From the NCBI RefSeq assembly GCF_000702305.1, contig NZ_JNLC01000010.1, positions 372,001 through 436,000 on the forward strand: DNA of 64,000 nt. Reading direction: 5' to 3'. Below, piece after piece: positions 18,442 through 33,435 of this stretch. The DNA is from Allobosea sp. 117. GTDB lineage: Bacteria > Pseudomonadota > Alphaproteobacteria > Rhizobiales > Xanthobacteraceae. The translations under genes were made by a program, and so were the position numbers. Under the pieces are notes generated by a model, which saw only the letters and a program-made list of their open reading frames with translations, searched no databases and was not told the origin of the DNA. Position 1 is the stretch's first letter; every line of letters begins with the position of its first letter.

Positions 18442-19426
18442 CGCGGCGCTGCGCACCGCCTCGTTCCGGCTGCCCGGCCTCTCGGCGCTCGGGCCGCTGC
18501 TGGCGCTGATCCTGCTCGTCGTGCTCGGCGCCTTCCTTAACGACAATTTCCTCTCGGCCGGCAACGTCACCAACGTGCTGGCCCGCTCCGCCTTCATCGG
18601 CATGATCGCGGTGGGGATGACCTTCGTCATCACCTCCGGCGGCCTCGACCTGTCGGTCGGCTCGATGGCCGCCTTCATCGCCGGGGTGATGATCCTCGCC
18701 ATGAACGCCCTGCTGCCCGCTATGGGCGTCGGGGTGCCGCTGATCCTAGCAGGCATGGCCATCGCGCTGGCCATCGGCCTCTTGGCGGGGCTGACCAACG
18801 GCCTCCTGGTCACCCAAGCTCGGATCGAACCCTTCATCGTCACGCTCGGCACGATGGGGATCTTCCGCTCGCTCGTCACCTGGCTGGCCGACGGCGGCAC
18901 CATCAGCCTCGACTTCGCGGTGCGCCAATTCTATCGGCCGGTCTACTATTCCGGCCTGTTCGGCGTCGCCTGGCCGATCCTCGTCTTCGCGCTGGTCGCC
19001 GTCGCCGGCCAGATCGCCATGCGCCACACCCGCTTCGGGCGTTACTGCGAGGCGATCGGCTCCAATGACCGGGTGGCGCGCTACTCGGCGGTGAGCGTCG
19101 ACCGCGTGCGGCTGATGACCTATGTGCTGCTCGGGCTGCTCGTGGGCCTCGCCACCATCATGTACGTGCCGCGCCTCGGCTCGGCCTCCGGTTCCACTGG
19201 CATGCTGTGGGAGCTCGAGGCGATCGCCGCCGTCATCATCGGTGGCACCGCGCTCAAGGGCGGCTATGGCCGTGTCTGGGGCACGGTGGTCGGCGTTCTG
19301 ATCCTCAGCCTGATCGACAACATCCTGAACCTGGCCGACCTGGTCTCGCCTTATCTCAACGGGGCGATCCAGGGGGTCATCATCGTGCTCGCGGTGGTTC
19401 TCCAGCGCGGGAAATCATCCGCCTGA
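18434..19426 (+). CDS. Sugar ABC transporter permease (RbsC type)
   Basis: A 330-residue inner-membrane permease with about 8-10 hydrophobic helices and the CUT2 permease motifs GMTFVITSGGLDLSVGSMAA, EAIGSNDRVARYSAV and AAVIIGGTALKGGYG. It forms the channel for the RbsA-type ATPase just upstream, and its start overlaps that gene. A 27-base gap with GGGAGGAA leads to the binding-protein gene. Only one permease gene is present, as expected for a homodimeric CUT2 channel. Confidence 0.93.
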   Translation: MSDAALRTASFRLPGLSALGPLLALILLVVLGAFLNDNFLSAGNVTNVLARSAFIGMIAVGMTFVITSGGLDLSVGSMAAFIAGVMILAMNALLPAMGVGVPLILAGMAIALAIGLLAGLTNGLLVTQARIEPFIVTLGTMGIFRSLVTWLADGGTISLDFAVRQFYRPVYYSGLFGVAWPILVFALVAVAGQIAMRHTRFGRYCEAIGSNDRVARYSAVSVDRVRLMTYVLLGLLVGLATIMYVPRLGSASGSTGMLWELEAIAAVIIGGTALKGGYGRVWGTVVGVLILSLIDNILNLADLVSPYLNGAIQGVIIVLAVVLQRGKSSA

Positions 19427-19453
19427 GAGCGGAACAACGGGAGGAAACACGAA

Positions 19454-20419
19454 ATGGAACGCAGGACATTCCTCGCCACCACGGCGCTTGCAGCCGCCGC
19501 GGCCGCCGCCGGCCTCTCCGTGCCCGCGGCGGCGCAGGGCAAGAAGGTGACGATCGGCGTCTCGATCCCCTCGGCGACGCACGGCTTCATGGGCGGCCTC
19601 AACTGGCACGCGCAGGAGACCATCAAGCGGCTGAAGGCGACCTACCCGAACCTCGATTTCGTGCTGGCCACCGCCGGCGCGGTGGGCAAGCAGGTGAACG
19701 ACATCGAGGACATGATGGCGACGCGCAACATCGATGCGCTGGTCGTGCTGCCCTTCGAATCCGAGCCGCTCACCAGCCCGGTCAAGGCGGTGAAGGATGC
19801 CGGAAAATGGGTCACGGTGGTCGACCGCGGTCTGTCGCAGGCCGGTATCGAGGATCTCTATGTCGCCGGCGACAACACCGCCTTCGGTCGCGTCGCGGGC
19901 GAGTATTTCCGCGCCAATCTCAAGTCGGGCGCCAAGATCGTGGTGCTGCGCGGGATCCCGACCACGCTCGACAATGAGCGTGTCGATGCCTTCAGAAAGG
20001 CCATCGACGGCTCGGGCATCGAAATTCTGGACGCGCAGCACGGCAACTGGAACCGCGACAAGGCCTTCTCGGTGATGCAGGACTATCTGTCCAAGCACAA
20101 GAAGATCGACGCGGTGTGGGCGGCGGACGACGACATGGCGATCGGCGTGCTCGAAGCCATCGCCCAGTCGGGCCGCCAGAAGGAGATGTGGGTGGTCGGC
20201 GGCGCCGGCATGAAGGAGATCGTGAAGCGGATCATGGACAAGGACCCGCAGCTTCCGGTCGACGTCACCTATCCGCCCGCGCTCATCTCCACCGCGCTGG
20301 AGATCACCGCGCTGCGCTTCGTCTCCGACACGCCGGTCTATGGCCGCTTCATCATCGGCTCGACGCTGATCACGCCGGACAACGCCAAGCAGTTCTACTT
20401 CCCCGACAGCCCGTTCTGA
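19454..20419 (+). CDS. Sugar ABC transporter periplasmic substrate-binding protein (RbsB type)
   Basis: A 321-residue secreted receptor of the peripla_BP_4 family. The N terminus MERRTFLATTALAAAAAAAG followed by AAAQ has a twin-arginine-like RRTFL and a hydrophobic core, so export could be by Tat or Sec. The mature part has the family motif VGVSIPS-like TIGVSIPSATHGFMGG, IDALVVLPFES, VVDRGL and AVWAADDDMAIGVLEAI. It is the last gene of the operon; this order (ATPase, permease, binding protein) is common in CUT2 systems. A short GC hairpin lies 45 bases after the stop. Confidence 0.92.
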   Translation: MERRTFLATTALAAAAAAAGLSVPAAAQGKKVTIGVSIPSATHGFMGGLNWHAQETIKRLKATYPNLDFVLATAGAVGKQVNDIEDMMATRNIDALVVLPFESEPLTSPVKAVKDAGKWVTVVDRGLSQAGIEDLYVAGDNTAFGRVAGEYFRANLKSGAKIVVLRGIPTTLDNERVDAFRKAIDGSGIEILDAQHGNWNRDKAFSVMQDYLSKHKKIDAVWAADDDMAIGVLEAIAQSGRQKEMWVVGGAGMKEIVKRIMDKDPQLPVDVTYPPALISTALEITALRFVSDTPVYGRFIIGSTLITPDNAKQFYFPDSPF

Positions 20420-20524: not shown

Positions 20525-21268
20525 TCAGATTTCGCCGAGGATGGTGTCGGCGAGGCCGGCGACCGTCTCGACATGCGCGAGGCTCGCATCATAGGCGGCG
20601 GCGCCGTCGCGCCGCCGGATCGCGTCGTGGAGCCGGCGCATCTCGCCGATCGCAGTCTCATGGCGTCCGGAGGTCGCGATGGTCATGCCGCGCAGATGGT
20701 TGATGCGGGCGTGCAGCGAGCGCACCACGTCCCACGCGACCACCTTGCCGGCGGACAGGAAGAGCTTCTCGTAGAATTCGGTGGTCGCCTTCAGCACGTC
20801 GCGCGGGCTGCCCTCGCGAAACGCCGCGTCGATGCGGTCGATCGCCTCGCCGAGGGCGTCGATGTCGCGCTCGCTGGCATGAAGCGCGCAGGCACGGGCT
20901 GCCTCGCTCTCCAGAAGACCCCGGATTTCATAGATCTGCGCCGCCTGGGCGGGGTCGGGCTTGGTCACGGCTGGGCCCTGATGCGGGATGGTCTCGACCA
21001 GCCCCTCCGCCTCCAGATGGCGCAACACCTCGCGCACCACGCTGCGGCTCACGCCGAGTCGCTCGCATAGAGTCCGCTCGACCAGCCGCTCGCCGGGCCG
21101 GAAGCGGAAATCGAGGATGGCGTCCCGCATCTTCTCGAGCGTCAGGCTGCGCAGCGTGGCGACGCTGCGCTCCACCTTCATGCCTTCGGAATCCTCCACG
21201 GCCGCTCCTGCCGCCTGCACGTCCATGCGTTCGCCCGCTCGCATCGTCCCCGAAACCGCCGCGCCCAT
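20525..21268 (-). CDS. GntR family regulator with FCD (FadR-type) sensor domain
   Basis: About 247 residues. The winged-helix N-terminal domain (ERTLCERLGVSRSVVREVLRHLEAEGLV) is followed by an all-helical FCD ligand domain with the metal-binding-type Asp/His residues (EIRGLLESEAA, TEFYEKLF, RRLHDAIRRRDGAAA, SLAHVETV). It is divergent from the AA_synth/flavin-oxygenase operon and most likely represses it until a small carboxylate-like effector binds. The start is uncertain: ATG 21268 is chosen because the longer reading to 21370 would run through the palindromic operator; ATGs at about 21238, 21220 and 21181 are alternatives. Confidence 0.85.
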   Translation of the reverse strand: MGAAVSGTMRAGERMDVQAAGAAVEDSEGMKVERSVATLRSLTLEKMRDAILDFRFRPGERLVERTLCERLGVSRSVVREVLRHLEAEGLVETIPHQGPAVTKPDPAQAAQIYEIRGLLESEAARACALHASERDIDALGEAIDRIDAAFREGSPRDVLKATTEFYEKLFLSAGKVVAWDVVRSLHARINHLRGMTIATSGRHETAIGEMRRLHDAIRRRDGAAAYDASLAHVETVAGLADTILGEI

Positions 21269-21335
21269 CGTGGTCCATTCTCCGCGTCTTGTCGCCCGGC
21301 TTCGTCGCAGAACGGCAATTGACGCGATCATATTA

Positions 21336-21347
21336 TGGTATACCATC
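21336..21347. promoter_or_regulatory. GntR/FCD operator (ATGGTATACCAT)
   Basis: A perfect 12-bp palindrome containing TGGTATACCA, the kind of core seen for many FadR-subfamily regulators. It lies 38 bases before the AA_synth ATG and about 68 bases from the preferred GntR start. A TTGACG hexamer is at 21320-21325. The position suits shared repression of both divergent genes. Confidence 0.75.
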
Positions 21348-21384
21348 ATATGGAATAGCTCATCCAGCAACAGAGCGATCTGCC

Positions 21385-22005
21385 ATGCCGCTGCACCTTC
21401 GGAAGCTCGTCACCTATTCGGAAACTACGCTGATCGAAGGTGGCCGCGCCGCTCCCAAGCCGTTGCATCTGTTCGCTGTCGCGGCCGTTCTGCGCAATCC
21501 GTGGGCGGGGCGGGGCTTTGTCGAGGACCTGAAGCCGGAGATCCACGCCATAGCGCCGGGTCTCGGCGAGACGCTGACCGCCGAGATCATCCGCATGGCG
21601 GGCTCGGGCGAGGCCGTGGAGGGCTATGGCAAGGCCGCCGTGGTCGGCACCTCCGGTGAGGTGGAGCACGCCTCGGCCCTCATCCACACGCTGCGGTTCG
21701 GCAACCATTTCCGCAAGGCGGTTGGGGCCAAGAGCTATCTGTCCTTCACCAATACGCGCGGCGGTCCGAACGCCCCGGTCGTCATCCCGCTGATGCACAA
21801 GCTCGACGAGGGCATGCGGTCCCACTACCTCACCATCCAGTTCTCGATCCTCGACGCGCCGGCGCCGGACGAGATCGTGGTGGCGCTCGGCGCCTCGATC
21901 GGTGGGCGGCCCCATCACCGCATCGGCGACCGCTATCAGGACCTGAAGGACCTCGGCAGCACGCAGGAACTCGGCGCCGGCCAGGACGCCGCGACCCATG
22001 CCTGA
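21385..22005 (+). CDS. AA_synth (DUF1185) family protein
   Basis: A 206-residue protein of the 'amino acid synthesis' Pfam family, named by homology rather than by a known reaction. Visible motifs are LRNPWAGRGFVEDL (about 37-50), GKAAVVGTSGEVEHASALIHTLRFGNHFR and KSYLSFTNTRGGPNAPVVIPLMHK. The protein has no signal peptide or membrane segment and is probably a cytoplasmic oligomer. It is the first gene of the flavin-oxygenase operon and overlaps the fusion enzyme by 8 bases. In my recollection members often sit next to flavin-dependent oxygenases and amidases, which fits. A role in binding or converting a small metabolite of that pathway is inference. Confidence 0.8.
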   Translation: MPLHLRKLVTYSETTLIEGGRAAPKPLHLFAVAAVLRNPWAGRGFVEDLKPEIHAIAPGLGETLTAEIIRMAGSGEAVEGYGKAAVVGTSGEVEHASALIHTLRFGNHFRKAVGAKSYLSFTNTRGGPNAPVVIPLMHKLDEGMRSHYLTIQFSILDAPAPDEIVVALGASIGGRPHHRIGDRYQDLKDLGSTQELGAGQDAATHA

Positions 22006-23767
22006 GCCGCGCATCGCCGCCTATATCGGCCGCGACGGCCGGCCGGGCCGCATCCGCTACCGGCGCGAGGGCGTCGCCGGCGGCGTGCCGGTGGTGCTGA
22101 TCCATGGCGTCGGCATGGCGATCGAGGCCTGGGAGCCGCAGATCGCGGCGCTGGCGGCGCGCTACGACGTGATCGCGCTGGACATGCTGGGCCATGGCGG
22201 CTCCAGCCTGCCACCGGAGGATGCGCGGCTGTCCGACTACAGCGACGCGGTGATCGCCCTGCTCGACACGCTGGGCCTTCCCGCCGCGGCGGTGGTCGGC
22301 CATTCGATGGGCGCGCTGGTGGCGCTCGAGGTCGCGCTCTCTCATCCCGCGCGTGTCATCGGCGTCGCCGCGCTGAACGCCGTGTTCTGCCGCACGCCGG
22401 AGCAGCGCGCCGCCGTGCTTGCCCGCGCCGCCTCGCTCGCCGAGGAGGGCAGCGTCGCCTCGCATGAGGCCGCCGTCGCCCGCTGGTTCGGCGAGCCGGT
22501 GCCGCCGGAGCTGGACGCCGCCGCGCGCGGCGTCGCCGAGCTGCTCGGAAACTGCGATCCGGTCGGCTATGCCCGCACCTATGCGCTCTTTGCCGCCTCC
22601 GACGAGGCGCATCGCGACCGTCTGCGCGATCTTGCCGTGCCGGCGCTGTTCATGACCGCCGACGGCGACGCGAACTCCACGCCCGCCATGTCGGAGGCGA
22701 TGGGCCGCCTCGCCCCGCGCGGGCGCGCCGAGGTGATCGCCGGCGAGCGGCACATGATGAACCTCACCGCCCCGGAGACGGTGAACGAGAGGCTCCTCGC
22801 CTTCCTGGCCGAGATCGCGCCGGTGCCGTTCGACCCGAAGGCGTTCCGGCAGGCGCTCGGCGCCTTCCTCACCGGCGTCACCGTGGTGACGACCCGCACG
22901 CCCGCCGGCGAATTGCGCGGCTTCACCGCCAACTCCTTCACCTCGGTCTCGCTCGATCCGCCGCTGATCCTCGTCTGCATCGCCAGGACGGCGTCCAGCT
23001 TCCCGGTGTTCGGTGCGGCGGAACATTTCGCCGTCTCCATCCTCGCGGCGGCGCAGAAGGATGTTTCGGCGCTGTTCGCCTCGAAGACCGCCGACAAGTT
23101 TGCCGGCATCGGCTGGCACACGGGCCCGACCGGCAGCCCGGTGATCGCCGGCGCCAGCGCCTGGTTCGACTGCACCCGCCACGAGGTGGTGGAGGCTGGT
23201 GACCACATCATCCTGATCGGTAGGGTGGCCGGCTTCGGCGCGTCGGCGGCCGCGCCGCTCGGCTATTGCCGCGGCGCCTATGTCGACTTCGCGCTCGGCC
23301 AGGAGGCGCTGGCGCGGCGCGATGAGCCGGCCCGCGTCGGCGCCATTCTGGAGCAGGGCGGCGCGGTGCTGCTGGTCGAGGACGGCAAGGGCGGCCTCGA
23401 CCTGCCCGCCGGCACCTGCCTCGAACCGGCGGGCAATCCGCGCAGCCTCAAGGGCGTGCTGGGCAAGCTCGGTGTCGAGGGACGGCTCGGCTTCCTGTTC
23501 GCGGTGTTCGAGACGCCCGCCAACGGGGCGGGGGGCGGCGAGGCCACCGTGTCGATCTATTACCGCGGCAGCTTTGAGGGTGCGCCGCGCCCCGGCAGCG
23601 GCGCCCGGCTCGTGGCGTTCGACGACATTCCCTGGGCGCGCCTGCCGGACGAGGCGATCCGCACCATGCTCCGTCGCTTCGTGCGCGAGCGCACCGAGGA
23701 CGCATTCGGCATCTATGTGGGCGACCACGAGCGCGGCACCGTCCATCCGCTCGCGGCGCACGCCTGA
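21998..23767 (+). CDS. Fusion of alpha/beta hydrolase, flavin reductase and NUDIX-like domain
   Basis: A 589-residue three-part protein. Residues 1-275 are an alpha/beta hydrolase with oxyanion motif LIHGVGM (34-40), nucleophile elbow GHSMG (Ser103), acid Asp222/224 and His252 in ERHMMN. Residues 280-435 are a RutF/DIM6-type FMN reductase domain (FRQALGAFLTGVTVVTTR, GFTANSFTSVSLDPPLILVC, FAGIGW, GDHIILIGRV), expected to supply reduced flavin to the adjacent monooxygenase. Residues 440-570 look like a NUDIX fold with a degenerate NUDIX box (LPAGTCLEPAGNPRSLKGVLGKLGVEG), so catalysis there is doubtful. The reading frame is continuous. It resembles RutD and RutF joined together. Confidence 0.85.
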   Translation: MPEPRIAAYIGRDGRPGRIRYRREGVAGGVPVVLIHGVGMAIEAWEPQIAALAARYDVIALDMLGHGGSSLPPEDARLSDYSDAVIALLDTLGLPAAAVVGHSMGALVALEVALSHPARVIGVAALNAVFCRTPEQRAAVLARAASLAEEGSVASHEAAVARWFGEPVPPELDAAARGVAELLGNCDPVGYARTYALFAASDEAHRDRLRDLAVPALFMTADGDANSTPAMSEAMGRLAPRGRAEVIAGERHMMNLTAPETVNERLLAFLAEIAPVPFDPKAFRQALGAFLTGVTVVTTRTPAGELRGFTANSFTSVSLDPPLILVCIARTASSFPVFGAAEHFAVSILAAAQKDVSALFASKTADKFAGIGWHTGPTGSPVIAGASAWFDCTRHEVVEAGDHIILIGRVAGFGASAAAPLGYCRGAYVDFALGQEALARRDEPARVGAILEQGGAVLLVEDGKGGLDLPAGTCLEPAGNPRSLKGVLGKLGVEGRLGFLFAVFETPANGAGGGEATVSIYYRGSFEGAPRPGSGARLVAFDDIPWARLPDEAIRTMLRRFVRERTEDAFGIYVGDHERGTVHPLAAHA

Positions 23768-23788
23768 GGCACATCGGGGATCACGGAC

Positions 23789-24838
23789 ATGAAATTCTCC
23801 CTCTTCCTTCATATGGAGCGTTCCGACCCGTCGATCCCGCACCGCCGGCTGTTCGACGAGCTGGAGGAGCTCGCGTTGACCGCCGAGGCCGCCGGCTTCG
23901 AGACGGCGTGGATCGGCGAGCATCACGCGATGGAGTTCACCATCGCGCCCAACCCCTTCATCCAGCTCGCCCATCTCGCCGCGCGCACCTCGACCATCCG
24001 GCTCGGCACCGGCAATGTCGTCGCCCCGTTCTGGAATCCGATCCGCCTCGCCGGAGAGGCGGCGATGATGGACGTCGCCTGCAATGGCCGGCTCGATCTC
24101 GGCATCGCCCGCGGCGCCTACAGCTTCGAATATGAGCGGATGCTGCCGGGCCTCGATGCCATGGGCGCCGGCCTCAGGATGCGCGAGCTGGTGCCGGCGG
24201 TGAAGAAGCTGTGGGAGGGCGACTACGCCCATGAGGGCCAGTTCTGGTCCTTCCCCACCTCCACCGCCTCGCCGAAGCCCGTCCAGAGTGGCGGCCCGCC
24301 GATCTGGATCGCCGCGCGCGACCCGAATAGCCACGACTTCGCCGTCGCCAATGGCTGCAACGTGCAGGTGACGCCGCTCGCCTCGGGCGACGGCGAGGTG
24401 GTGAGCCTGATGGAGCGCTTCCAGGCCGCGCTCGCCAACCATCCGGAGGTGCCGCGCCCGCAGATCATGCTGCTGCAGCACACCTTCGTCACCGACTCGG
24501 AGGCGGAGACGCAGGCGCTCGCCGACGACCTCTCCGCCTTCTACTGCCTGTTCGGTGCCTGGTTCGCCAACAAGCGGCCGATCCGCCAGGCCATCATGGC
24601 GCCGCTCTCGCCCGAGGAGCGGGCGGCCTATCCGCAATACGCCCCGGACATCGTGCGCAGGAACCTCGTGCTCGGCCAGCCCGACGAGGTGATCGCGCGG
24701 ATCAAATCCTACGAGGCGCTCGGCTTCGATCAGTTCTCGCTCTGGATCGACGGCGACCTCAGCCATGCCCGCAAGAAGAAGTCGCTCGACCTCTTCATCC
24801 GTCACGTCATGCCGGCCTTCGCGCCGGTCTACGCGTGA
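23789..24838 (+). CDS. LLM class flavin-dependent monooxygenase (luciferase-like)
   Basis: A 349-residue luciferase-like TIM-barrel oxygenase with family motifs AAGFETAWIGEHH, IRLGTGNVVAPFWNPIRLAGEAAMMD, GRLDLGIARGAY and PPIWIAARDPNSHDFA. These enzymes use reduced FMN and O2; RutA-type members open ring amides through a flavin peroxide or N-oxide. The upstream fusion protein contains the flavin reductase domain that would supply FMNH2, so the two form a two-component oxygenase. It follows the fusion gene by 21 bases. The substrate is unknown. Confidence 0.9.
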   Translation: MKFSLFLHMERSDPSIPHRRLFDELEELALTAEAAGFETAWIGEHHAMEFTIAPNPFIQLAHLAARTSTIRLGTGNVVAPFWNPIRLAGEAAMMDVACNGRLDLGIARGAYSFEYERMLPGLDAMGAGLRMRELVPAVKKLWEGDYAHEGQFWSFPTSTASPKPVQSGGPPIWIAARDPNSHDFAVANGCNVQVTPLASGDGEVVSLMERFQAALANHPEVPRPQIMLLQHTFVTDSEAETQALADDLSAFYCLFGAWFANKRPIRQAIMAPLSPEERAAYPQYAPDIVRRNLVLGQPDEVIARIKSYEALGFDQFSLWIDGDLSHARKKKSLDLFIRHVMPAFAPVYA

Positions 24839-24849
24839 GGGAGGCGGCG

Positions 24850-26325
24850 ATGGCGGCATCGGATTTCCGGCTCTATATCGACGGCGCCTTCGTGGCGGGC
24901 GGCGCCAGCTTCGAAAGCCTCGATCCGGCGACCGGGCAGGCCTGGGCGAGAATGCCCGCCGCCACCGCCGCTGACGTCGAACGCGCTGTCGAGGCCGCCC
25001 ATCGGGCGCTTCACGATCCCGCCTGGGCCGATCTCACCGCCACCCAGCGCGGCAGGCTGCTGATGAAGCTCGGCGATCTCGTTGCCGCCCATGCGCCCGA
25101 ACTTGCCGAGCTGGAGACCCGCGACACCGGCAAGATTGTCCGCGAGACGCGCGCGCAGATCGGCTATGTCGCCGACTATTATCGCTATTTCGGTGGCCTC
25201 GCCGACAAGCTCGAAGGCGTGCACCTGCCGGTCGACAAGCCCGACATGGAGGCCTATCTGCGCCGCGAGCCGATCGGCGTGGTGGCCGCGGTGGTGCCGT
25301 GGAATTCCCAGCTCCTGCTCGCGGCAGTGAAGCTCGGCCCGGCGCTCGCCGCCGGCTGCACGGTGGTGCTGAAGGCCTCCGAGGAGGGGCCGGCGCCGCT
25401 GCTCGCCTTCGCGAAGCTGGTGCACGAGGCCGGTTTCCCGAAGGGAGTCGTCAACGTCCTCACCGGCTTCGGCGAGGAGTGCGGCAGGACGCTGACCGCC
25501 CATCCGCTGGTGGCGCGCGTCGCCTTCACCGGCGGCCCGTCGACGGCCCGCCATGTGGTGCGCAACACCGCCGAGAACCTCGCCTATACGACGCTCGAAC
25601 TGGGCGGCAAGTCGCCGGTTCTGGTGTTCGCGGACGCAGACCTCGAAAGCGCCGCCAACGCCGTCGTCGCCGGCATCTTCGCCGCGAGCGGCCAGAGCTG
25701 CGTCGCCGGCTCGCGCCTGTTCGTCGAGGCGTCGGTCCGCGACCGGCTCGTCGACATGCTGGTCGAGAAGGCGAGGCGCATCCGCATCGGCGATCCGCAG
25801 GACCCGGCGACCGAGATGGGGCCGCTCGCCACCGCCCGCCAGTTCGCCCATATCGAGGCGACCGTCGCCGCGAGCCTCGATGCCGGCGCCGTCCTCGTCA
25901 CCGGCGGCAAGCGGCCGGCGGCCTTCCCGGCCGGCAACTATTACGAGCCGACCATCCTTGCCTGTTCGGGCAATGCGGTTCCCTGCGCCGCCGAGGAGCT
26001 GTTCGGTCCGGTGCTCAGCGTCATCGCCTTCAATGACGAGGCCGAGGCGCTCGCGCTCGCCAACGACACGCCCTTCGGCCTCGCCTCCGGTGTCTTCACC
26101 GGCAGCCTCACCCGCGCCCACCGGCTGATCCGCAGGCTGCACGCCGGCATCGTCTGGGTGAACACCTATCGCGCGGTCTCGCCCATCGTCCCCTTCGGCG
26201 GCTACGGCCAGTCTGGCCTCGGGCGCGAGGGCGGCGCCGAGTCCATCCGCGACTACACCCGCACCAAATCGGTCTGGATCCGCACCTCGGACGAGCCGAT
26301 CGCCGATCCGTTCGTGATGCGCTGA
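24850..26325 (+). CDS. Aldehyde dehydrogenase of the flavin-oxygenase operon
   Basis: A 491-residue NAD(P)-dependent aldehyde dehydrogenase with complete active-site residues: Asn152 (VVPWNSQ), Lys175, Glu250 (LELGGKSP) and Cys284 (SGQSCVAGSR). The FTGGPSTARH coenzyme loop is also present. ATG 24850 has GGGAGG five bases upstream; an in-frame GTG at 24835 is less likely. It would oxidise the aldehyde released after oxygenation and hydrolysis to an acid. The 17-base stretch around its start is repeated exactly at the next gene junction. Confidence 0.92.
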   Translation: MAASDFRLYIDGAFVAGGASFESLDPATGQAWARMPAATAADVERAVEAAHRALHDPAWADLTATQRGRLLMKLGDLVAAHAPELAELETRDTGKIVRETRAQIGYVADYYRYFGGLADKLEGVHLPVDKPDMEAYLRREPIGVVAAVVPWNSQLLLAAVKLGPALAAGCTVVLKASEEGPAPLLAFAKLVHEAGFPKGVVNVLTGFGEECGRTLTAHPLVARVAFTGGPSTARHVVRNTAENLAYTTLELGGKSPVLVFADADLESAANAVVAGIFAASGQSCVAGSRLFVEASVRDRLVDMLVEKARRIRIGDPQDPATEMGPLATARQFAHIEATVAASLDAGAVLVTGGKRPAAFPAGNYYEPTILACSGNAVPCAAEELFGPVLSVIAFNDEAEALALANDTPFGLASGVFTGSLTRAHRLIRRLHAGIVWVNTYRAVSPIVPFGGYGQSGLGREGGAESIRDYTRTKSVWIRTSDEPIADPFVMR

Positions 26326-26336
26326 GGGAGGCGGCG

Positions 26337-26651
26337 ATGCTCTACGAGTTGCGCACCTATCGGCTGAAGACCGGATCCGTGCCGGCCTATGTGAAGCTGG
26401 TCGCTGACGAGGGGATCGCCATCCAGCAGGGCCATCTCGGCCGGCTTGTCGGCTATTTCAGCAGCGACATCGGCCCGCTGAACGAGATCGTCCACATCTG
26501 GGCCTATGAGAGCCTCGACGACCGCACCGCGCGCCGCGCGCGGCTCGCCGCCGATCCGGCATGGCAGGCCTTCATTCCGAAGATCCAGGCGCTGATCGAG
26601 GTGATGGAGAACAAGATTCTCCTGCCGACCTCCTTCTCGCCGCTGGGCTGA
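26337..26651 (+). CDS. NIPSNAP family protein
   Basis: A 104-residue small protein of the NIPSNAP/dimeric alpha-beta barrel superfamily, beginning MLYELRTYRLKTGSVPAYVKL. Further family features are GRLVGYFSSDIGPLNEIVHIWAYESLDDR and the C-terminal KIQALIEVMENKILLPTSFSPL. Bacterial members are common in catabolic operons with flavin or aldehyde enzymes, but their reaction is generally unknown. It is preceded by GGGAGG. A 124-base gap to the importer operon contains a short GGCGC-AAAAA-GCGCC hairpin (26723-26737). Confidence 0.85.
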   Translation: MLYELRTYRLKTGSVPAYVKLVADEGIAIQQGHLGRLVGYFSSDIGPLNEIVHIWAYESLDDRTARRARLAADPAWQAFIPKIQALIEVMENKILLPTSFSPLG

Positions 26652-26775
26652 AACAGGCCATGCCCGAACGGGGCTGGAACCCGGTGTCGTCCGAGGAAGA
26701 TAAGACAGAACAATAACTTAAAGGCGCAAAAAGCGCCGCGTGCCGAAACCAACCAGAGAACCACAGGGGAATGAC

Positions 26776-27819
26776 ATGTCTCGCACTGCCAAGGGAATGA
26801 GCTGGATCAAGGGTCTCGCGCTCGGCGCGCTGGTGGTCGGCGCCGGCCTCGGCGTCGCCGCCGCGCAGTCGAACTCCATCGTCTTCACGAGCTGGGGCGG
26901 CACCACGCAGGACGCCCAGAAAAAGGACTGGGCGGCGCCCTTCACCAAGAAGACCGGCATCGCCGTGAAGCAGGACGGGCCGACCGACTACGGCAAGCTG
27001 AAGGCCATGGTGGAAAGCGGCAACGTCTCGTGGGACGTGGTGGACGTCGACGGCGACTTCGCCGCCGCGGCCGCCAAGGACGGCCTGCTGGAGCCGATCG
27101 ACTTCAACATCGTCAAGCGCGCCGACCTCGACCCGCGCTTCGTGACCGATCACGCCGTCGGCAGCTTCTATTATTCCTTCGTGCTCGGCTTCAACCCGGC
27201 GAGCTTCGGCGAGAAGGCCCCGAAGAGCTGGGCGGACGTGTTCGACACCAAGACCTTCCCCGGCAAGCGCACCTTCTACAAATGGTCGACCCCGGGCGTC
27301 CTCGAGATCGCTCTGCTCGCCGACGGCGTGCCGGCCGACAAGCTCTATCCGCTCGATCTCGACCGCGCCTTCAAGAAGCTCGACACCATCAAGAAGGACA
27401 TCGTGTGGTGGGGCACCGGAGCGCAGTCGCAGCAACTGCTCGCCTCCGGCGAGGCGCCGATCGGCCAGTTCTGGAACGGGCGCCTGTTCGCGCTGGAGCA
27501 GGGCGGCACCAAGGTCGGCATCTCCTGGGAGCAGAACCTCACCGCCGCCGACATGCTCGTCGTGCCGAAGGGCTCGAAGAACAAGGAAGCGGCCATGAAG
27601 TTCCTGGCCGAGGCGACCAGCGCCGAGGGTCAGGCCAGCTTCGCCACGGACAGCGGCTACGCGCCGATCAACGTCAAGTCGGCGGCGCTGATGCCGAAGG
27701 ACCTCGCCGCCAGCCTGCCCGACCGACACACCGCCTCGCAGATCAATCTCGACATGGCCTACTGGGCCGCGCATCGCGACGAGATCGGCAAGCGCTGGTA
27801 CGCTTGGCAGGCGCAGTGA
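26776..27819 (+). CDS. ABC transporter substrate-binding protein (spermidine/putrescine PotD-like)
   Basis: A 347-residue secreted receptor of the extracellular solute-binding family used by PotD/PotF-type importers. The signal peptide runs to about AAAQ (residue 31). Mature motifs are IVFTSWGGTTQDAQKKDW, WDVVDVDGD, YSFVLGFNP, SWADVFDTKTFPGKR and ADMLVVPKGSKNKEAAMKFLAEA. The ATG at 26776 with AGGGGA five bases upstream is preferred over an in-frame ATG 36 bases earlier. It is the first gene of a four-gene importer. Ligands in this family range from polyamines to other amines and organic acids. Confidence 0.9.
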   Translation: MSRTAKGMSWIKGLALGALVVGAGLGVAAAQSNSIVFTSWGGTTQDAQKKDWAAPFTKKTGIAVKQDGPTDYGKLKAMVESGNVSWDVVDVDGDFAAAAAKDGLLEPIDFNIVKRADLDPRFVTDHAVGSFYYSFVLGFNPASFGEKAPKSWADVFDTKTFPGKRTFYKWSTPGVLEIALLADGVPADKLYPLDLDRAFKKLDTIKKDIVWWGTGAQSQQLLASGEAPIGQFWNGRLFALEQGGTKVGISWEQNLTAADMLVVPKGSKNKEAAMKFLAEATSAEGQASFATDSGYAPINVKSAALMPKDLAASLPDRHTASQINLDMAYWAAHRDEIGKRWYAWQAQ

Positions 27820-27826
27820 CGGGATC

Positions 27827-27866
27827 GACGCCCGCGCCCGGCCGGTGCGGGCGTCGCCCTCCTTTT
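27827..27866 (+). terminator. Intercistronic terminator-like hairpin after the binding protein
   Basis: GACGCCCGC, an 11-base loop, then GCGGGCGTC, followed by GCCCTCCTTTT. It lies 8 bases after the binding-protein stop and before the permease genes. Such a structure would let the receptor be made in excess of the membrane parts by partial termination or mRNA end protection. Confidence 0.55.
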
Positions 27867-27940
27867 CGACGGCCTGATCGGTCCGATCGGCCCGACCATG
27901 CATCCGACCGCACTCATCGACCATTCTCCGACGAGCGCTC

Positions 27941-28819
27941 ATGACCGTGATCGACGCCGCGACCAGCACACCTCCGCATGCGCCTTCCGCGTCCTCGCGC
28001 AGGGCTGCCCGTGGCTTGGCCGCGGTGATGCCGGCCTTCGCGCTGGTGAGCGTGGTGTTCGTCCTGCCGGTGCTGGCACTGCTGCTGCGCAGCGTGCTGG
28101 AGCCACAGCCGGGGCTGCAGAACTACGAGGCGTTCTTCGCCTCCACCACCTATCTGAAGGTGCTCGCCAACACCTTCCTGGTCGCCGGCACGGTGACGGT
28201 GGTGACCGTGCTGCTCGGCTTCCCGGTCGCCTGGTTCCTCGCCATCGCGCCCGCCTTCTGGTCGCGGCTGCTCTTCGCGATCGTCATTTTGTCCATGTGG
28301 ACCAACCTCCTGGCCCGGACCTATGCGTGGATGGTGCTGCTGCAGCGCACTGGCGTGGTCAACCGGACGCTGATGGGGCTCGGCCTGATCTCCGAGCCGC
28401 TGCCGCTGATCAACAATCTGGTCGGCGTCACCATCGGCATGACCTACATCATGCTGCCCTTCATGATCCTGCCGCTGCACGCCACCATTCGCGCGATCGA
28501 TCCGTCGGTGTTCCAGGCGGCCGCTTTGTGCGGGGCGAGCCGCTGGCATGCGCTGACCCGGGTCTTCCTGCCGCTCACCGCCTCGGGCATCGCCGCTGGC
28601 GCGCTGATGGTGTTCGTCATGTCGCTCGGCTACTTCATCACGCCGGCGCTGCTGGGCGGTACCTCCAACATGATGCTGGCCGAGCTTATCGCGCAGCTCG
28701 TGCAGTCGCTCCTCGACTGGGGCCTCGCCGGCGCCGCGGCCGTGGTGCTGCTGACGGTGACGCTGGCCATCTACGCGGTGCAACTGCGCTTTTTCGGCTT
28801 CGGCCGGGCGGCGGGGTGA
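27941..28819 (+). CDS. ABC transporter permease 1 (PotB-like)
   Basis: A 292-residue inner-membrane permease with six hydrophobic segments. The cytoplasmic EAA loop reads AAALCGASRWHALTRVFLPLTASGI. The arrangement LANTFLVAGTVTVVTVLLGFPVAWFLA is typical of the PotB family. It pairs with the second permease, whose gene starts 7 bases after its stop, to form a heterodimeric channel. It lies downstream of the hairpin that separates it from the receptor gene. Confidence 0.9.
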   Translation: MTVIDAATSTPPHAPSASSRRAARGLAAVMPAFALVSVVFVLPVLALLLRSVLEPQPGLQNYEAFFASTTYLKVLANTFLVAGTVTVVTVLLGFPVAWFLAIAPAFWSRLLFAIVILSMWTNLLARTYAWMVLLQRTGVVNRTLMGLGLISEPLPLINNLVGVTIGMTYIMLPFMILPLHATIRAIDPSVFQAAALCGASRWHALTRVFLPLTASGIAAGALMVFVMSLGYFITPALLGGTSNMMLAELIAQLVQSLLDWGLAGAAAVVLLTVTLAIYAVQLRFFGFGRAAG

Positions 28820-28826
28820 GGCGGCC

Positions 28827-29627
28827 ATGCTGCTCGACTTCGCCCGCCTCGGTTCCTGGCGCCTTCTCCTCGGCCTGATCGCGGCGCTGGTCGGCGCCTT
28901 CCTGCTGCTGCCCATCGCGCTGATCGTCGCCCTGTCCTTCGGTTCCTCGCAATGGCTCCAGTTCCCGCCACCGGGCTGGACGTTGCGCTGGTATGAGGAG
29001 CTGTTCGCCGATCCGGAATGGCTCGGCTCCTTCCTCACCAGCTTCCAGATCGCCGTCGTCGTCACGGTCCTGTCCGTCGGCATCGGCGCGATGGCGTCGT
29101 TCGGCCTGACGCGCGGCGAATTCCGCGGGCGCGAGCTGCTGCGGGCGCTGTTCCTCACCCCGATGATACTGCCGGTGGTGGTGCTCGCGGTGGCGCTCTA
29201 CGCCTTCTTCCTGCGCCTGCATCTCAACGGCACCTTCATCGGCTTCGTTCTTGCGCATCTCGTCATCGCGCTGCCCTTCTCGATCATCGCGATCTCCAAC
29301 GCGCTGGAGCGTTTCGACCGCGACATCGAGACCGCCGCCATCGTGTGCGGCGCCAGCCCGCTCGAGGCCAAGATCCGCATCACCTTGCCCGGCATCCGCC
29401 TTGGGCTGATGAGCGCGGCGATCTTCTCCTTCCTCGCCTCCTGGGACGAGGTAGTCATCGCCATCTTCATGGCGAGCCCGGACCTCCAGACCCTGCCGGT
29501 GCGCATCTTCGGTACCCTGCGGCAGGATCTCTCGCCCGTCATCGCCGCCATATCGACGGTGCTCATCGCCCTCACCGCCGGCCTCATGGCGCTCGCCGCG
29601 CTCCTCCGCAAGGACGCCCGCTCATGA
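28827..29627 (+). CDS. ABC transporter permease 2 (PotC-like)
   Basis: A 266-residue inner-membrane permease with six hydrophobic segments and the EAA loop AAIVCGASPLEAKIRITLPGIRLG. SFGLTRGEFRGRELLRALFLTPMILP is typical of PotC. GAGGCGG lies just before the ATG, and its stop overlaps the ATPase ATG (ATGA). Together with PotB-like and PotA-like proteins it completes the importer linked to the flavin-oxygenase operon. Confidence 0.9.
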   Translation: MLLDFARLGSWRLLLGLIAALVGAFLLLPIALIVALSFGSSQWLQFPPPGWTLRWYEELFADPEWLGSFLTSFQIAVVVTVLSVGIGAMASFGLTRGEFRGRELLRALFLTPMILPVVVLAVALYAFFLRLHLNGTFIGFVLAHLVIALPFSIIAISNALERFDRDIETAAIVCGASPLEAKIRITLPGIRLGLMSAAIFSFLASWDEVVIAIFMASPDLQTLPVRIFGTLRQDLSPVIAAISTVLIALTAGLMALAALLRKDARS

Positions 29628-30706
29628 CCTTTCTCGATATCCGTAACGTTTCCAAGCATTTCGGCTCCGTTGCCGCGGTGAGCAACGTCTCGCTCGAGAT
29701 CGCCAGGGGCGAGTTCGTGACCTTTCTCGGACCCTCGGGCTCGGGAAAGAGCACGACGCTCTACATGATCGCCGGCTTCTTCGAGCCGAGCGCGGGGGAT
29801 ATCCGCATCGACGGCGCCGGCATTCTCGGCCTGCCGTCGAACAAGCGGAACATCGGCATGGTGTTCCAGCGCTACACGCTGTTCCCGCATCTCACCGTCG
29901 CCGAGAACGTCGCCTTTCCGTTGCGCGTGCGGCGCCGCCCGCAGGCGGAGGTAGCGCGCAAGGTGGAGGAAATGCTGGCGCTGGTCCGCCTCGACCGCTT
30001 CGCCGACCGCATGCCGGCGCAGCTCTCCGGCGGACAGCAGCAGCGCGTCGCGCTCGCCCGCGCGCTCGCCTATGATCCGCCTCTGCTGCTGATGGACGAG
30101 CCGCTCTCGGCGCTCGACAAGAAATTGCGCGAGGAGATCCAGGCGGAGATACGCCGCATCCATCGCGAGACCGGCGTGACCATTCTCTATGTCACGCACG
30201 ATCAGGAGGAGGCGCTGAGCCTTTCCGACCGGGTGGCGCTGTTCAATCACGGCCGCATCGAGCAGGTCGGCAAGGGGCGCGAGCTCTATGAGCAGCCGAG
30301 CACGCGTTTCGTCGCCGGCTTCGTCGGCCACTCCAACTTCCTCGACTGCACGGTTGCCGCCCGCAACGACCATCGAGCCGACGTCGTCTTCCCTGATGGC
30401 AGCCGCCTCCCTGGCACGCCGGTCCATCGCGGCGCCCATGCCGGCGCGGCGGCGGGGCTGATGATACGGCCGGACCGGGTGCGCATCGGAGCGCGGGGCG
30501 CGGCGGCGACGTCAGCCGGCGTCGACGCGGTGCTGTCCGACGCCACCTTCATCGGCGACACCTTCCATTTCGTCGCCACGACTGCCTGGGGGGCGCCGGT
30601 GAGCATCCGTGTGCCCGCCAGCGCGCCCATGCCTCACCAGCACGCCGTGGGCGACCGCGTGCGGTTGAGCTGGGACCCCGGACAGGCACGCCTTTTCGAC
30701 AACTGA
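29624..30706 (+). CDS. ABC transporter ATP-binding protein (PotA-like)
   Basis: A 360-residue ATPase: Walker A GPSGSGKST (about 37-45), Q-loop MVFQRYTLFPHLTVAENV, signature LSGGQQQRVALARAL, Walker B LLLMDEPLSALDKKLR and H-loop YVTHDQEEAL. A C-terminal TOBE/MOP-like domain (about 270-355) contains MIRPDRVRIG and FIGDTFHF. This is the energy-coupling subunit for the two permeases. It starts in the stop of permease 2 and is the last gene of the long operon that begins at the AA_synth gene or at the receptor gene. Confidence 0.93.
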   Translation: MTFLDIRNVSKHFGSVAAVSNVSLEIARGEFVTFLGPSGSGKSTTLYMIAGFFEPSAGDIRIDGAGILGLPSNKRNIGMVFQRYTLFPHLTVAENVAFPLRVRRRPQAEVARKVEEMLALVRLDRFADRMPAQLSGGQQQRVALARALAYDPPLLLMDEPLSALDKKLREEIQAEIRRIHRETGVTILYVTHDQEEALSLSDRVALFNHGRIEQVGKGRELYEQPSTRFVAGFVGHSNFLDCTVAARNDHRADVVFPDGSRLPGTPVHRGAHAGAAAGLMIRPDRVRIGARGAAATSAGVDAVLSDATFIGDTFHFVATTAWGAPVSIRVPASAPMPHQHAVGDRVRLSWDPGQARLFDN

Positions 30707-31068: not shown

Positions 31069-31956
31069 ATGAAATTGTCGGTACGACGGTGCTGTACCGT
31101 TGGGATTTCGCTGGCAGTGTTGCTTGCTGCCGTGCAGTTGTCTGCCGTTCGGGCCGACGAAATCAGCCTCACCAAGAGCGAGGCGATCTATAATGCACTG
31201 CCCGAGAAGGTTCGCAAGGCGGGCGTGATCAATGCCGCGACGGCGGCCGACTATCCTCCCTTCGAATTTCTCGACGAGAACAACAAGCTCGTCGGCGCGG
31301 ATATCGATCTTGCCGCGGCTCTGAGCAAGGTGCTCGGCGTTACCGTGAAGAACAATCAGACCGAATTCTCGAACATCATGCCCGGCATTCAGGCCGGCCG
31401 GTTCGATATCGGCATGTCCTCCATGGGCGACTATTTCAGCCGGCAGAAGACCGTCGACTTCGTCGACTACTTCCGCGGCGGCACGTCCTTCCTCGTGCGC
31501 GCCGGCGCGAAGGAGCCGGCGGCCATCGCGGATGTCTGCGGCACCGCCGTCGGGGCGCTGAAGGGCACGTCCTCGGAGACGCAGGCCGAGGATACCAGCA
31601 AGAAATGCGTGGAGGCCGGCAAGCCGGCGGTGAAGGTCAATGCCTTCCCGACGCAGAACGCGGCGGTGCTGGCGCTCACCTCGGGGCGCATTGATTCGGT
31701 GTCAGGTGATTCCGCGACCAACGGCTATTCGGCGAACCAGATCGGCGGCGCGATCAAGAATGTAGGCCTGACCGTCTATAATGATCGCCCCTATTACGGC
31801 ATCGCCGTTCCCAAGGATTCCCCGCTCTATCAGCCGCTCTTCGATGCCATGGGCGTGGTGATGAAGTCGGGCGCCTATGCCGCCATCCTCAAGAAGTGGG
31901 GTCTGGAATCCGGCGCCATCGCCGAGCCCATGAAGAATCAGGGATCCGACGGCTGA
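31069..31956 (+). CDS. Polar amino acid ABC transporter substrate-binding protein
   Basis: A 295-residue secreted receptor of solute-binding family 3. The signal peptide ends near SAVRADE (residue about 29). Core motifs are KAGVINAATAADYPPFEFLDENNKLVGADIDLAAALSKVLG, FSNIMPGIQAGRFDIGMSSMGDYFSRQKTVDFVDYF, the hinge segment VGALKGTSSE and YYGIAVPKDSPL. The Arg that usually grips the amino acid carboxylate lies in the RFD/RQK region. It is followed by a strong hairpin and then, unusually, an aminotransferase gene before the permease and ATPase. Confidence 0.92.
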   Translation: MKLSVRRCCTVGISLAVLLAAVQLSAVRADEISLTKSEAIYNALPEKVRKAGVINAATAADYPPFEFLDENNKLVGADIDLAAALSKVLGVTVKNNQTEFSNIMPGIQAGRFDIGMSSMGDYFSRQKTVDFVDYFRGGTSFLVRAGAKEPAAIADVCGTAVGALKGTSSETQAEDTSKKCVEAGKPAVKVNAFPTQNAAVLALTSGRIDSVSGDSATNGYSANQIGGAIKNVGLTVYNDRPYYGIAVPKDSPLYQPLFDAMGVVMKSGAYAAILKKWGLESGAIAEPMKNQGSDG

Positions 31957-31990
31957 GCCCGGGCCAGTGTATTCCTTGCAAGTGAACCGT

Positions 31991-32027
31991 CCGGCCTGGA
32001 GACAGCCATTGGCCGTCTCCAGGCCGG
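31991..32027 (+). terminator. Strong intercistronic hairpin, 13-bp perfect stem
   Basis: CCGGCCTGGAGAC, an 11-base loop, then GTCTCCAGGCCGG, 35 bases after the receptor stop. A short TTTA follows at 32037. It probably attenuates readthrough so that the receptor is produced in excess of the downstream enzyme and membrane genes. Confidence 0.6.
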
Positions 32028-32099
32028 TGCTCGACCTTTAGGAGGCCGGCGCTGTTCCGCTTTTCCGGCGGTGACCGTCCGTCTCCGGCTACGAAAGCG

Positions 32100-33422
32100 A
32101 TGTTTGCAATGTCTCTCCTGGCGCAGTCCTCGACCATGCAGGCCCCGACCAACGCCTATCGTCCGCACCTCTCTCCGGCTTTGGTTCAGGCGACACCCCT
32201 CGTCGTCGACTGGGCGCAGGGATGCCGGCTGTTCGACAAGGACGGCAAGGCCTATCTCGATTTCACCTCGGGCATCGGCGTCACCTCGACGGGGCATTGC
32301 CATCCGCGCGTGGTCGAGGCGGCGCAGCGGCAGGTCGGCAGGCTGATCCACGGCCAGTACGGCGTGGTGATGCATCAGCCGATGCGCGATCTCATCGAGC
32401 GGCTGGGCGGCCTGACCCCGGACGGGCTGAACGCCTTCTTCTTCGCCAATTCCGGCGCCGAGGCGGTGGAATCGGCGATACGGCTCGCCCGCAACTACAC
32501 CCGCCGCCAGAACATCATCGTGTTCCAGGGGTCCTTCCACGGCCGCACCTACGGCGCCTCGTCGCTGACCACGTCCGGCGCCCGCTTCCGGTCGGCGCAG
32601 TCCGGTGCGCTGCCGCCGGGCGTCGTGGTGGCGCCTTTTCCGACACCGTTCCGCTATGGCTGGGATCAGGAGAGCGCCGAGCGGTTCTGCATCCGCGAGC
32701 TCGACCACATCTTCGCCACCCTGACCGCGCCGGCCGACACCGCCGCGATCATCGTCGAGCCGGTCCAGGGCGAGGCCGGCTACCAGCCGGGCTCCCGCGC
32801 CTTCTTCGCGGCGCTGCGCGAGCGGGCCGACCAGCACGGCATCGTGCTGATCACCGACGAGGTCCAGTCCGGCGTCGGGCGGACCGGCCGTTTCTGGGCG
32901 GGCGAGCATTTCGGACTGGAGCCCGATATCCTGGTCTTCGCCAAGGGCATCGCCAGTGGCTTTCCGCTCTCCGGCATCGCCGCGCGCGAGGAGATCATGG
33001 CCGCCGCGCTGCCCGGCTCGCAGGGTGGAACCTTCAGCGGCAACGTCGTCGCCTGCGCCGCTGCACTGGCGACGCTGGACGTCATCGAGGAGGAAGGGCT
33101 GGTCGGGAACGCGGAGCGGCGCGGCGCGCAGTTGCGTGCCGGCCTCGAAGCGACAGCCGCACGGCACACGGCGATCGGCGACGTGCGCGGGATCGGCCTC
33201 ATGCAGGCCAGCGAATTCGTAATGCCGGACGGCGATCCCGCCCCGCATCTCGCCAAGGCCGTGCTGAAGGCGGCCTTTGAGCGCGACCTCATCGTTCTCA
33301 CCTGCGGCCCCTATGGGCATATCGTGCGCATGATTCCGCCGCTGGTCATTTCCGCCGAGGAAGTGACCGAAGCTCTCGACATATGGAATGCTGCGGTCGA
33401 TGAAGCGCTGGGAGCGAGGTGA
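32100..33422 (+). CDS. Class III aminotransferase (GabT/ArgD-like)
   Basis: A PLP enzyme of 440 residues from ATG 32100. Family motifs are DFTSGIGVTSTGHCHPRV, FFFANSGAEAVESAIRLAR, FQGSFHGRT, IVEPVQGEAGY, ITDEVQSGVGRTG (Asp253 holds the pyridine nitrogen) and FAKGIASGFPL (Lys282 is the Schiff-base lysine). It resembles 4-aminobutyrate or ornithine-type aminotransferases that transfer a terminal amino group to 2-oxoglutarate or pyruvate. The start is uncertain: ATG 32100 and 32109 lack a good site, whereas AGGAGG at 32040-32045 sits 6 bases before an in-frame CTG at 32052. It is embedded in the importer operon, so the imported amino compound is its likely substrate. Confidence 0.9.
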   Translation: MFAMSLLAQSSTMQAPTNAYRPHLSPALVQATPLVVDWAQGCRLFDKDGKAYLDFTSGIGVTSTGHCHPRVVEAAQRQVGRLIHGQYGVVMHQPMRDLIERLGGLTPDGLNAFFFANSGAEAVESAIRLARNYTRRQNIIVFQGSFHGRTYGASSLTTSGARFRSAQSGALPPGVVVAPFPTPFRYGWDQESAERFCIRELDHIFATLTAPADTAAIIVEPVQGEAGYQPGSRAFFAALRERADQHGIVLITDEVQSGVGRTGRFWAGEHFGLEPDILVFAKGIASGFPLSGIAAREEIMAAALPGSQGGTFSGNVVACAAALATLDVIEEEGLVGNAERRGAQLRAGLEATAARHTAIGDVRGIGLMQASEFVMPDGDPAPHLAKAVLKAAFERDLIVLTCGPYGHIVRMIPPLVISAEEVTEALDIWNAAVDEALGAR

Positions 33423-33435
33423 GGTGACGGATGTG

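Follow-up and report, generated by a model that had tools for sequence, protein, structure and literature searches.

The subject of this analysis is an operon on the plus strand at positions 21385 to 30706 of the window, i.e., the whole 64,000-nucleotide stretch of Allobosea sp. 117 DNA under study, in which relatives of the trigonelline degradation (Tgn) proteins are encoded together with an ATP-binding cassette (ABC) importer related to the γ-aminobutyrate (GABA) transport system, Gts. The first gene (21385 to 22005) encodes a TgnF-like protein of the AA_synth family (PF06684; Pfam E value, 1.5e-68) and is the single match of its kind in the genome. It is followed by genes for a 589-residue hydrolase-reductase fusion (21998 to 23767; Abhydrolase_1, 3e-24; Flavin_Reduct, 2.2e-41), a TgnB-like flavin monooxygenase of the luciferase type (23789 to 24838; Bac_luciferase, 1.8e-57), a TgnC-like aldehyde dehydrogenase (ALDH; 24850 to 26325; Aldedh, 1.9e-164), and an accessory NIPSNAP protein (26337 to 26651; Pfam, 1.3e-35). 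The importer consists of a substrate-binding protein, hereafter the receptor (26776 to 27819), assigned to the Atu4243/GtsA (GABA receptor) branch by matches to chains of solved structures, two permeases with BPD_transp_1 matches, GtsB-like (27941 to 28819) and GtsC-like (28827 to 29627), and a GtsD-like ATPase with a TOBE_2 domain recognized by Pfam (29624 to 30706). Adjacent genes overlap or are separated by at most 124 bases. Open reading frame (ORF) calls and Pfam matches bear out, across the entire operon, the genes and coordinates given in an earlier reading that had been made from the nucleotide sequence without database searches (the sequence-only reading). Two further elements belong to the unit and are added here: a divergent GtsR-like regulator of the GntR/FCD type on the minus strand (20525 to 21370; ORF calls and Pfam) and a strandless palindrome in the operon promoter, ATGGTATACCAT (21335 to 21346), the probable operator. 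The listed TTG start of the regulator is probably too far upstream, since the ORF would otherwise overrun the palindrome.

Judging from sequence comparison, the operon of this soil bacterium quite probably serves the uptake and breakdown of the plant compound trigonelline (N-methylnicotinate) and is of the Tgn/Gts kind; its gene content and order, its kinship to rhizobial and Acinetobacter operons, the palindrome common to them, and the conserved candidate catalytic residues are observed directly. The gts operon on plasmid pRL10 of Rhizobium leguminosarum (now R. johnstonii) 3841 contains every gene of the window operon in the same order, as well as a GntR regulator and an exact copy of the promoter palindrome: GntR, AA_synth, hydrolase, flavin reductase, oxygenase, ALDH, NIPSNAP, receptor, permease, permease, ATPase, and succinate-semialdehyde dehydrogenase (SSADH). 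The features looked for in a Gts operon, i.e., a GntR regulator, gtsABCD, and the catabolic genes in matching order, are all found in the window. The two operons differ in that the trailing SSADH gene of pRL10 has no counterpart in the window operon, that hydrolase and reductase are separate on pRL10 and fused in the window, and that the regulator gene lies on the operon strand there and on the opposite strand here. We take Gts to be encoded by pRL100248-251, inside an operon comprising pRL100242-252. White et al. (2009) reportedly suggested that this operon degrades a GABA precursor of greater complexity, and they are said to have found GABA uptake inhibited by aromatic compounds of similar spacing. 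In excerpts of published work, Gts is named the GABA transport system of R. leguminosarum, citing White et al. 2009 (PMC7449393), and pRL100248 is called a transporter of the polyamine/opine/phosphonate type (PMC3333776).

On plasmid pSymA of Sinorhizobium meliloti ml47, the same genes lie in the same order between noeB and nifT; the set is also present in strain 1021. The ml47 reductase differs at 1 of 311 positions from Protein Data Bank (PDB) entry 3rh7, titled SMa0793, to which the reductase and C-terminal domain of the window fusion are homologous over nearly the whole length. In contrast to the window, the pSymA operon includes SSADH, its hydrolase is unfused, and its palindrome carries one mismatch. 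Trigonelline catabolism of S. meliloti has reportedly been mapped to pSym. According to an excerpt of one study, wild-type S. meliloti, but not a strain lacking pSymA, grows with 10 mM trigonelline as the sole carbon source (PMC4207669); an excerpt of another counts SMa0799-803, named potABCD2 and assigned to putrescine import, among the transport genes essential for symbiosis (PMC7268258). Since their numbering falls just after SMa0793, SMa0799-803 would be part of the SMa0793 operon. A limited literature search, with sources represented in part, yielded no link of the Gts operon to trigonelline, although such a link may already be published.

For Acinetobacter baylyi ADP1, Perchat et al. (2018) reportedly described cleavage of the ring between C5 and C6, a lactone, N-methylformamido-methylene-succinate, and then methylamine, formate, and CO2. 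The tgn pathway shares with the window operon a two-component flavin oxygenase, an ALDH, a hydrolase, and an AA_synth-type protein, and a locus of Acinetobacter baumannii (L109), used as a stand-in for ADP1, has these genes in the same order. Specifically, this locus reads GntR, AA_synth, hydrolase, reductase, oxygenase, ALDH, and a cytosine/purine-type permease, beyond which lie a 389-residue protein without a Pfam match, a transposase, and an SSADH scoring above the TIGR01780 cutoff. Identities to the window proteins are 60% for the oxygenase, 65% for ALDH, 66% for AA_synth, 42% for the hydrolase, and 55% for the reductase. The stand-in differs from the window in its type of permease and in its SSADH gene, which lies approximately 4 kb further on with the transposase gene between; no match to NIPSNAP or to an ABC importer was found in this locus. 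Among the components looked for in a Tgn cluster, the luciferase-like oxygenase, the flavin reductase, ALDH, the α/β hydrolase, and the AA_synth-type protein (TgnF) are present in the window. As stated in excerpts of the literature, bacterial trigonelline degradation starts with ring opening by TgnA/TgnB (PMC8269262), TgnB is a flavin-dependent trigonelline monooxygenase (PMC11354265), and TgnF, a homolog of the DUF1185-like protein HcdD, stimulates TgnE-dependent oxidation of succinate semialdehyde (PMC7913881).

Relatives of the oxygenase were retrieved from a genome collection, and the best 80 of 572, mostly from Mesorhizobium, Paraburkholderia, and Ancylobacter, were examined with flanks of up to 10 kb, some contigs ending sooner; these are the 80 best loci referred to below. 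Presence was called at identities of at least 40% for the hydrolase, 55% for ALDH, 50% for AA_synth and reductase, and 60% for the receptor, and at no less than 50% identity to the S. meliloti protein for SSADH. The hydrolase and ALDH were each found in 79 of the 80 loci, AA_synth and the flavin reductase each in 78, the receptor in 77, and NIPSNAP in 28; SSADH occurred within the flanking stretch in two, L052 and L055. The linkage of the operon genes, whose conserved co-occurrence the sequence-only reading had proposed to check, is not due to chance. The closest named relative among the 80 is Ancylobacter moscoviensis, with an oxygenase 91% identical to that of the window, so that the host probably belongs in or close to this genus. 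A wider draw covered 398 genomes of the phylum, of which 23, counting the own genome, contained the oxygenase at an E value of 1e-40 or better, and 20 of these loci were taken with 20 kb each (G000, G091, and G319 being left out). At the same thresholds, 17 of the 20 loci contained AA_synth, 15 each the hydrolase and ALDH (17 each at an E value of 1e-4), and 11 the reductase; the receptor was seen in 7, NIPSNAP in 2, and SSADH in a single locus. The core, which holds in the wider draw, thus comprises AA_synth, hydrolase, ALDH, and oxygenase, whereas the importer and NIPSNAP vary.

NIPSNAP had no match in the Mesorhizobium or Acinetobacter loci, and a literature search for co-mentions of this family gave nothing relevant among the entries listed. 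Two separate clusters had been suspected in Paraburkholderia and were resolved as one permuted cluster. AA_synth is often among the best-conserved proteins (80 to 85% in Paraburkholderia loci versus 66 to 69% for the oxygenase) and is retained also where SSADH is unlinked, which makes a function dependent on SSADH linkage unlikely. In Ancylobacter lacus (L008:9100-11035), hydrolase and oxygenase genes occur with no intervening flavin reductase match, and the locus has no receptor match exceeding 26% identity.

A tree of 39 hand-chosen oxygenase rows places the window protein in a clade with Ancylobacter, Azospirillum, Acidisphaera, Mesorhizobium, Paraburkholderia, Trinickia, and Aquitalea (support, 91/85), next to a second clade (100/99) that groups S. 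meliloti and R. leguminosarum with Acinetobacter, Caballeronia, and Leisingera. The two clades, the second of which includes the A. baumannii oxygenase that stands in for TgnB, are joined at 99/98, and clusters that we call type B, as opposed to type A, lie outside (Agrobacterium fabrum and Shinella). Type B, on pAt of A. fabrum and in Shinella, had been considered as a trigonelline cluster for its betaine-type importer. It was rejected in favor of the window type, since the five plasmid records of S. meliloti that occur among 40 listed matches of 324 each show one place, 42 to 43% identical to type B, and since the Acinetobacter oxygenase is 60% identical to that of the window versus 40% to type B. 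Type B clusters consist of reductase, ALDH, oxygenase (42 to 43% identical to that of the window), hydrolase, a carboxymuconolactone-decarboxylase-like protein, and AA_synth; one lies near a ProX-type importer (L084:7466-13255) and another near a polar-amino-acid-type importer (L113:9778-17274). In Shinella (L085:16747-21032), AA_synth, reductase, and ALDH of the type B kind come after type A. The type B substrate is perhaps another betaine.

At up to one mismatch, the promoter palindrome ATGGTATACCAT has a single site in the window, with none in 100 shuffles, and the 4.64-Mb own genome contains a single exact site, located at the operon promoter. Among the 80 best loci, the palindrome was found within 300 bases upstream of AA_synth exactly in 62, with one mismatch in 14, and with two in 1; of the remaining three, two have no AA_synth and one is too short. 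All eight type A loci of a plasmid collection carry it, four exactly (Kim5, R. leguminosarum, and both Leisingera loci), three with one mismatch (Shinella A, Acinetobacter, and S. meliloti), and one with two (Caballeronia). For the 20 loci of the wider draw, the corresponding counts were seven exact, two with one mismatch, two with two, and six with four to six (two of these being type B), while three have no AA_synth. By comparison, 4,624 control stretches gave three sites with one mismatch and no exact site, and, away from AA_synth, those 78 of the best loci that have this gene contained 15 sites of at most two mismatches in 1.48 Mb. In A. baumannii, a one-mismatch palindrome precedes AA_synth and a two-mismatch site lies 43 bases before SSADH. 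In type B, AA_synth is not the first gene of the cluster, and four type B loci, including L084 and L113, contain no palindrome at up to two mismatches when scanned as a whole. The regulator is 36 to 83% identical to its counterparts in related loci. These data suggest one regulon spanning alpha-, beta-, and gammaproteobacteria, in which the regulator would bind to the palindrome; the stretches without a palindrome that are named below (L137, L138, L139, L141, and that of the own-genome SSADH) speak against this reading.

The fusion protein comprises a TgnD-like α/β hydrolase (residues 1 to 272), a TgnA-like flavin reductase (residues 273 to 432), and a degenerate Nudix domain (residues ~433 to 589). 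Of the 80 best loci, 62 encode hydrolase and reductase as one fused protein and 16 as separate proteins, the other two (L008 and L032) giving no reductase match; a fusion count over 115 loci includes duplicates, i.e., the window counted twice, several genomes represented by both a short and a long locus, and three plasmids of S. meliloti. In an alignment of type A rows of at least 40% identity and at least 75% coverage, duplicates included, S103 and H252 of the hydrolase are kept in 109 of 109 rows and D224 in 102, with glutamate in the other 7; S103-D/E224-H252 is a candidate Ser-Asp/Glu-His triad. The best solved match of the hydrolase is the enol-lactonase 2xua (4.6e-20), and a lower-ranking match is 3kxp, α-(N-acetylaminomethylene)succinate hydrolase (1.6e-14), whose substrate we take to resemble that of the Tgn hydrolase. 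The nearest solved chain of the reductase is 3rh7, aligned over residues 273 to 586. Modeled alone, the C-terminal domain reached a mean predicted local distance difference test (pLDDT) value of 83.9 and matched Nudix hydrolases (3cng, 3.1e-7), although the Pfam scan of the fusion left it unrecognized. Judged by eye, the Nudix-box glutamates are not kept in the alignment of this domain. Because of this and of the silence of Pfam, the Nudix-fold domain is probably a sensor or structural domain. A joint model of the reductase and the C-terminal domain (pLDDT, 81.9; predicted template modeling score, 0.54) had a root mean square deviation of 14 to 3rh7, the placement of the two domains relative to one another not being fixed.

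The receptor aligns with the Atu4243/Gts GABA receptor and sensor scaffold over nearly the whole mature chain, matching the Agrobacterium chain 4eq7, named for polyamines, at 1.7e-148 and the GABA-sensor chain 6dgv at 1.4e-134. Its match to the E. coli-type spermidine/putrescine receptor 1pot is at 2.1e-15, and the PotD model gave 59.3 bits against a cutoff of 582. A polyamine-type importer, as named in the sequence-only reading, was rejected for the GABA-receptor branch on account of these values. R236 of the receptor is kept in 93 of 93 rows and D259 in 92 of 93, and they align with R203 and D226 of 4eq7, which we take to be GABA-binding residues. The window receptor differs from the Atu4243/Gts receptor in being encoded within a ring-opening operon, and its ligand is predicted. 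In another locus (L134:9508-19257), a near twin of the 6dgv scaffold (counted by eye, approximately 264 of 276 residues over the principal stretch of the alignment) is encoded at a distance of approximately 6 kb from an oxygenase resembling type A (56%). The locus also has genes for a flavin reductase and a cytosine/purine-type permease, as well as a riboflavin-synthesis-like gene. Its 20 kb contain five palindrome-like sites with one or two mismatches, some of them before the receptor, permease, and riboflavin-synthesis-like genes; no match to AA_synth, the hydrolase, or ALDH was found there.

In the proposed mechanism, the ABC importer would take up the trigonelline zwitterion, and the reductase domain would produce FMNH2 from NADH, a step that the Nudix-like domain may gate. 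With reduced flavin and oxygen, the luciferase-like oxygenase would open the pyridinium ring, between C5 and C6 as reported for the Tgn pathway. ALDH would then oxidize the ring-opened lactol or aldehyde, and the hydrolase domain would cleave N-methylformamido-methylene-succinate to methylamine, formate, CO2, and succinate semialdehyde. Repression by the GntR regulator at the palindrome would be lifted on binding of an inducer. The sequence-only reading had outlined flavin-dependent opening of a ring after import of an amine-like compound, followed by hydrolysis and oxidation of the aldehyde; this fits the scheme except for the order, since the aldehyde is oxidized before hydrolysis in the Tgn pathway. 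The products could be used by unlinked genes elsewhere in the genome, which encode an SSADH above the TIGR01780 cutoff (60% identical to that of S. meliloti) and enzymes resembling those of methylamine assimilation. The latter lie on C9 at approximately 886 to 890 kb (L166:9590-13936) and include genes for a type III glutamine synthetase and for glutamate-synthase-like, GXGXG, and amidotransferase proteins, presumably an mgsABC-gmaS-like set of the N-methylglutamate pathway; they are a possible outlet for methylamine, and no palindrome site was found in this stretch. In two Aquitalea loci of the window clade, SSADH (61 to 62%) directly follows the ATPase gene. As for the neighborhood of the operon, a second operon downstream (31069 to 35189) encodes an SBP_bac_3 receptor, a class III aminotransferase, for which 4-aminobutyrate transaminase models score below cutoff, a permease, and an ATPase, and a sugar-type ABC importer (ATPase, BPD_transp_2 permease, and Peripla_BP_4 receptor) lies upstream of the regulator (16498 to 20419).

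Several points weigh against trigonelline as the substrate. The loss of growth on trigonelline concerns the whole of pSymA, not this operon alone, and the presumed orthology to TgnA-F of ADP1 is drawn from the A. baumannii and S. meliloti stand-ins, the former being a putative trigonelline locus. SSADH, which was looked for in a Tgn cluster, is absent from the window operon; the stretch around the unlinked SSADH has no palindrome at up to two mismatches, nor do L137, L138, L139, and L141, which group with Leisingera, within 20 kb. According to an excerpt on HcdD, this homolog gave no visible stimulation of the kind that is ascribed to TgnF (PMC7913881). The nearest solved relatives of the window receptor are GABA receptors, Acinetobacter has a different permease, and the receptor is present in just 7 of the 20 wider-draw loci. 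The support for the clade of the window oxygenase itself is modest, and the protein is just 60 to 62% identical to the clade of trigonelline-linked relatives, so the substrate may differ. There is accordingly a small but appreciable chance that the operon acts by the same mechanism on a related compound, i.e., a different N-substituted pyridine carboxylate or betaine (homarine, for example), the more so as paralogous type B clusters with other importers make substrate shifts plausible in this family. This is countered by the regulator, palindrome, importer, and gene order that the window clade has in common with the S. meliloti and R. leguminosarum operons. For homarine in particular, an excerpt of one study reports that R. 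pomeroyi grew better on trigonelline and holds TgnA/TgnB unlikely to act on homarine (PMC8269262); a later correction to that study reports a contaminated homarine standard.

That the operon is one for GABA uptake, its oxygenase genes being incidental or handling a GABA precursor, appears unlikely. The receptor matches to 4eq7 and 6dgv, the conservation of R236 and D259, and the very name of Gts speak for it, but the five catabolic genes stay together without this importer in Acinetobacter and Leisingera, which marks them as the core and the importer as exchangeable, and GABA requires no oxygenase. The least probable explanation is the Rut-like pathway for pyrimidines or other N-heterocycles favored by the sequence-only reading, with which the operon shares the folds of a luciferase-like oxygenase, a RutF-like reductase, and a RutD-like hydrolase. 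The RutA model TIGR03612 had six matches in the own genome, none of them at the cutoff and none of them the window oxygenase, and the RutF and RutD models gave 100.9 and 82.8 bits against cutoffs of 254.75 and 238.5, respectively; Rut membership was rejected on these grounds. Among the Pfam matches of the ten proteins scanned, there was furthermore no member of the isochorismatase, RidA, or nitroreductase families, which we take to represent RutB, RutC, and RutE. The same reading had left the substrate unassigned and had known of no characterized pathway with this gene set, an already described operon of the same genes being what would speak against it. Such an operon exists as far as the genes are concerned, since the set is that of the R. 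leguminosarum operon with the Gts importer and includes the core of the trigonelline pathway; that trigonelline is the most likely substrate we infer from the related operons.

This kind of operon is already known in other bacteria, and the find is in this respect largely ordinary. Distinct in the window are the hydrolase-reductase fusion with its degenerate Nudix domain, the lack of a linked SSADH, and, compared with Acinetobacter, the importer of the GABA-receptor type. With trigonelline uptake and breakdown as its probable function, the operon gains a likely substrate, and three separately described things, i.e., the rhizobial Gts GABA importer operon, the pSymA-dependent growth on trigonelline, and the Acinetobacter-type trigonelline genes, are joined because gene order and palindrome are common to them. 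It is further quite possible, although somewhat less likely than not, that the "GABA" importers of the Gts/Atu4243 type are trigonelline importers in origin and that they bind GABA fortuitously, owing to a spacing of amine and carboxylate similar to that in N-methylnicotinate. If this is true, SMa0799-803 would be a misassigned importer, potABCD2 of S. meliloti transporting trigonelline rather than putrescine, and trigonelline would be a possible cross-ligand of GABA sensors, such that fluorescent sensors built on the 6dgv-type scaffold should respond to it.

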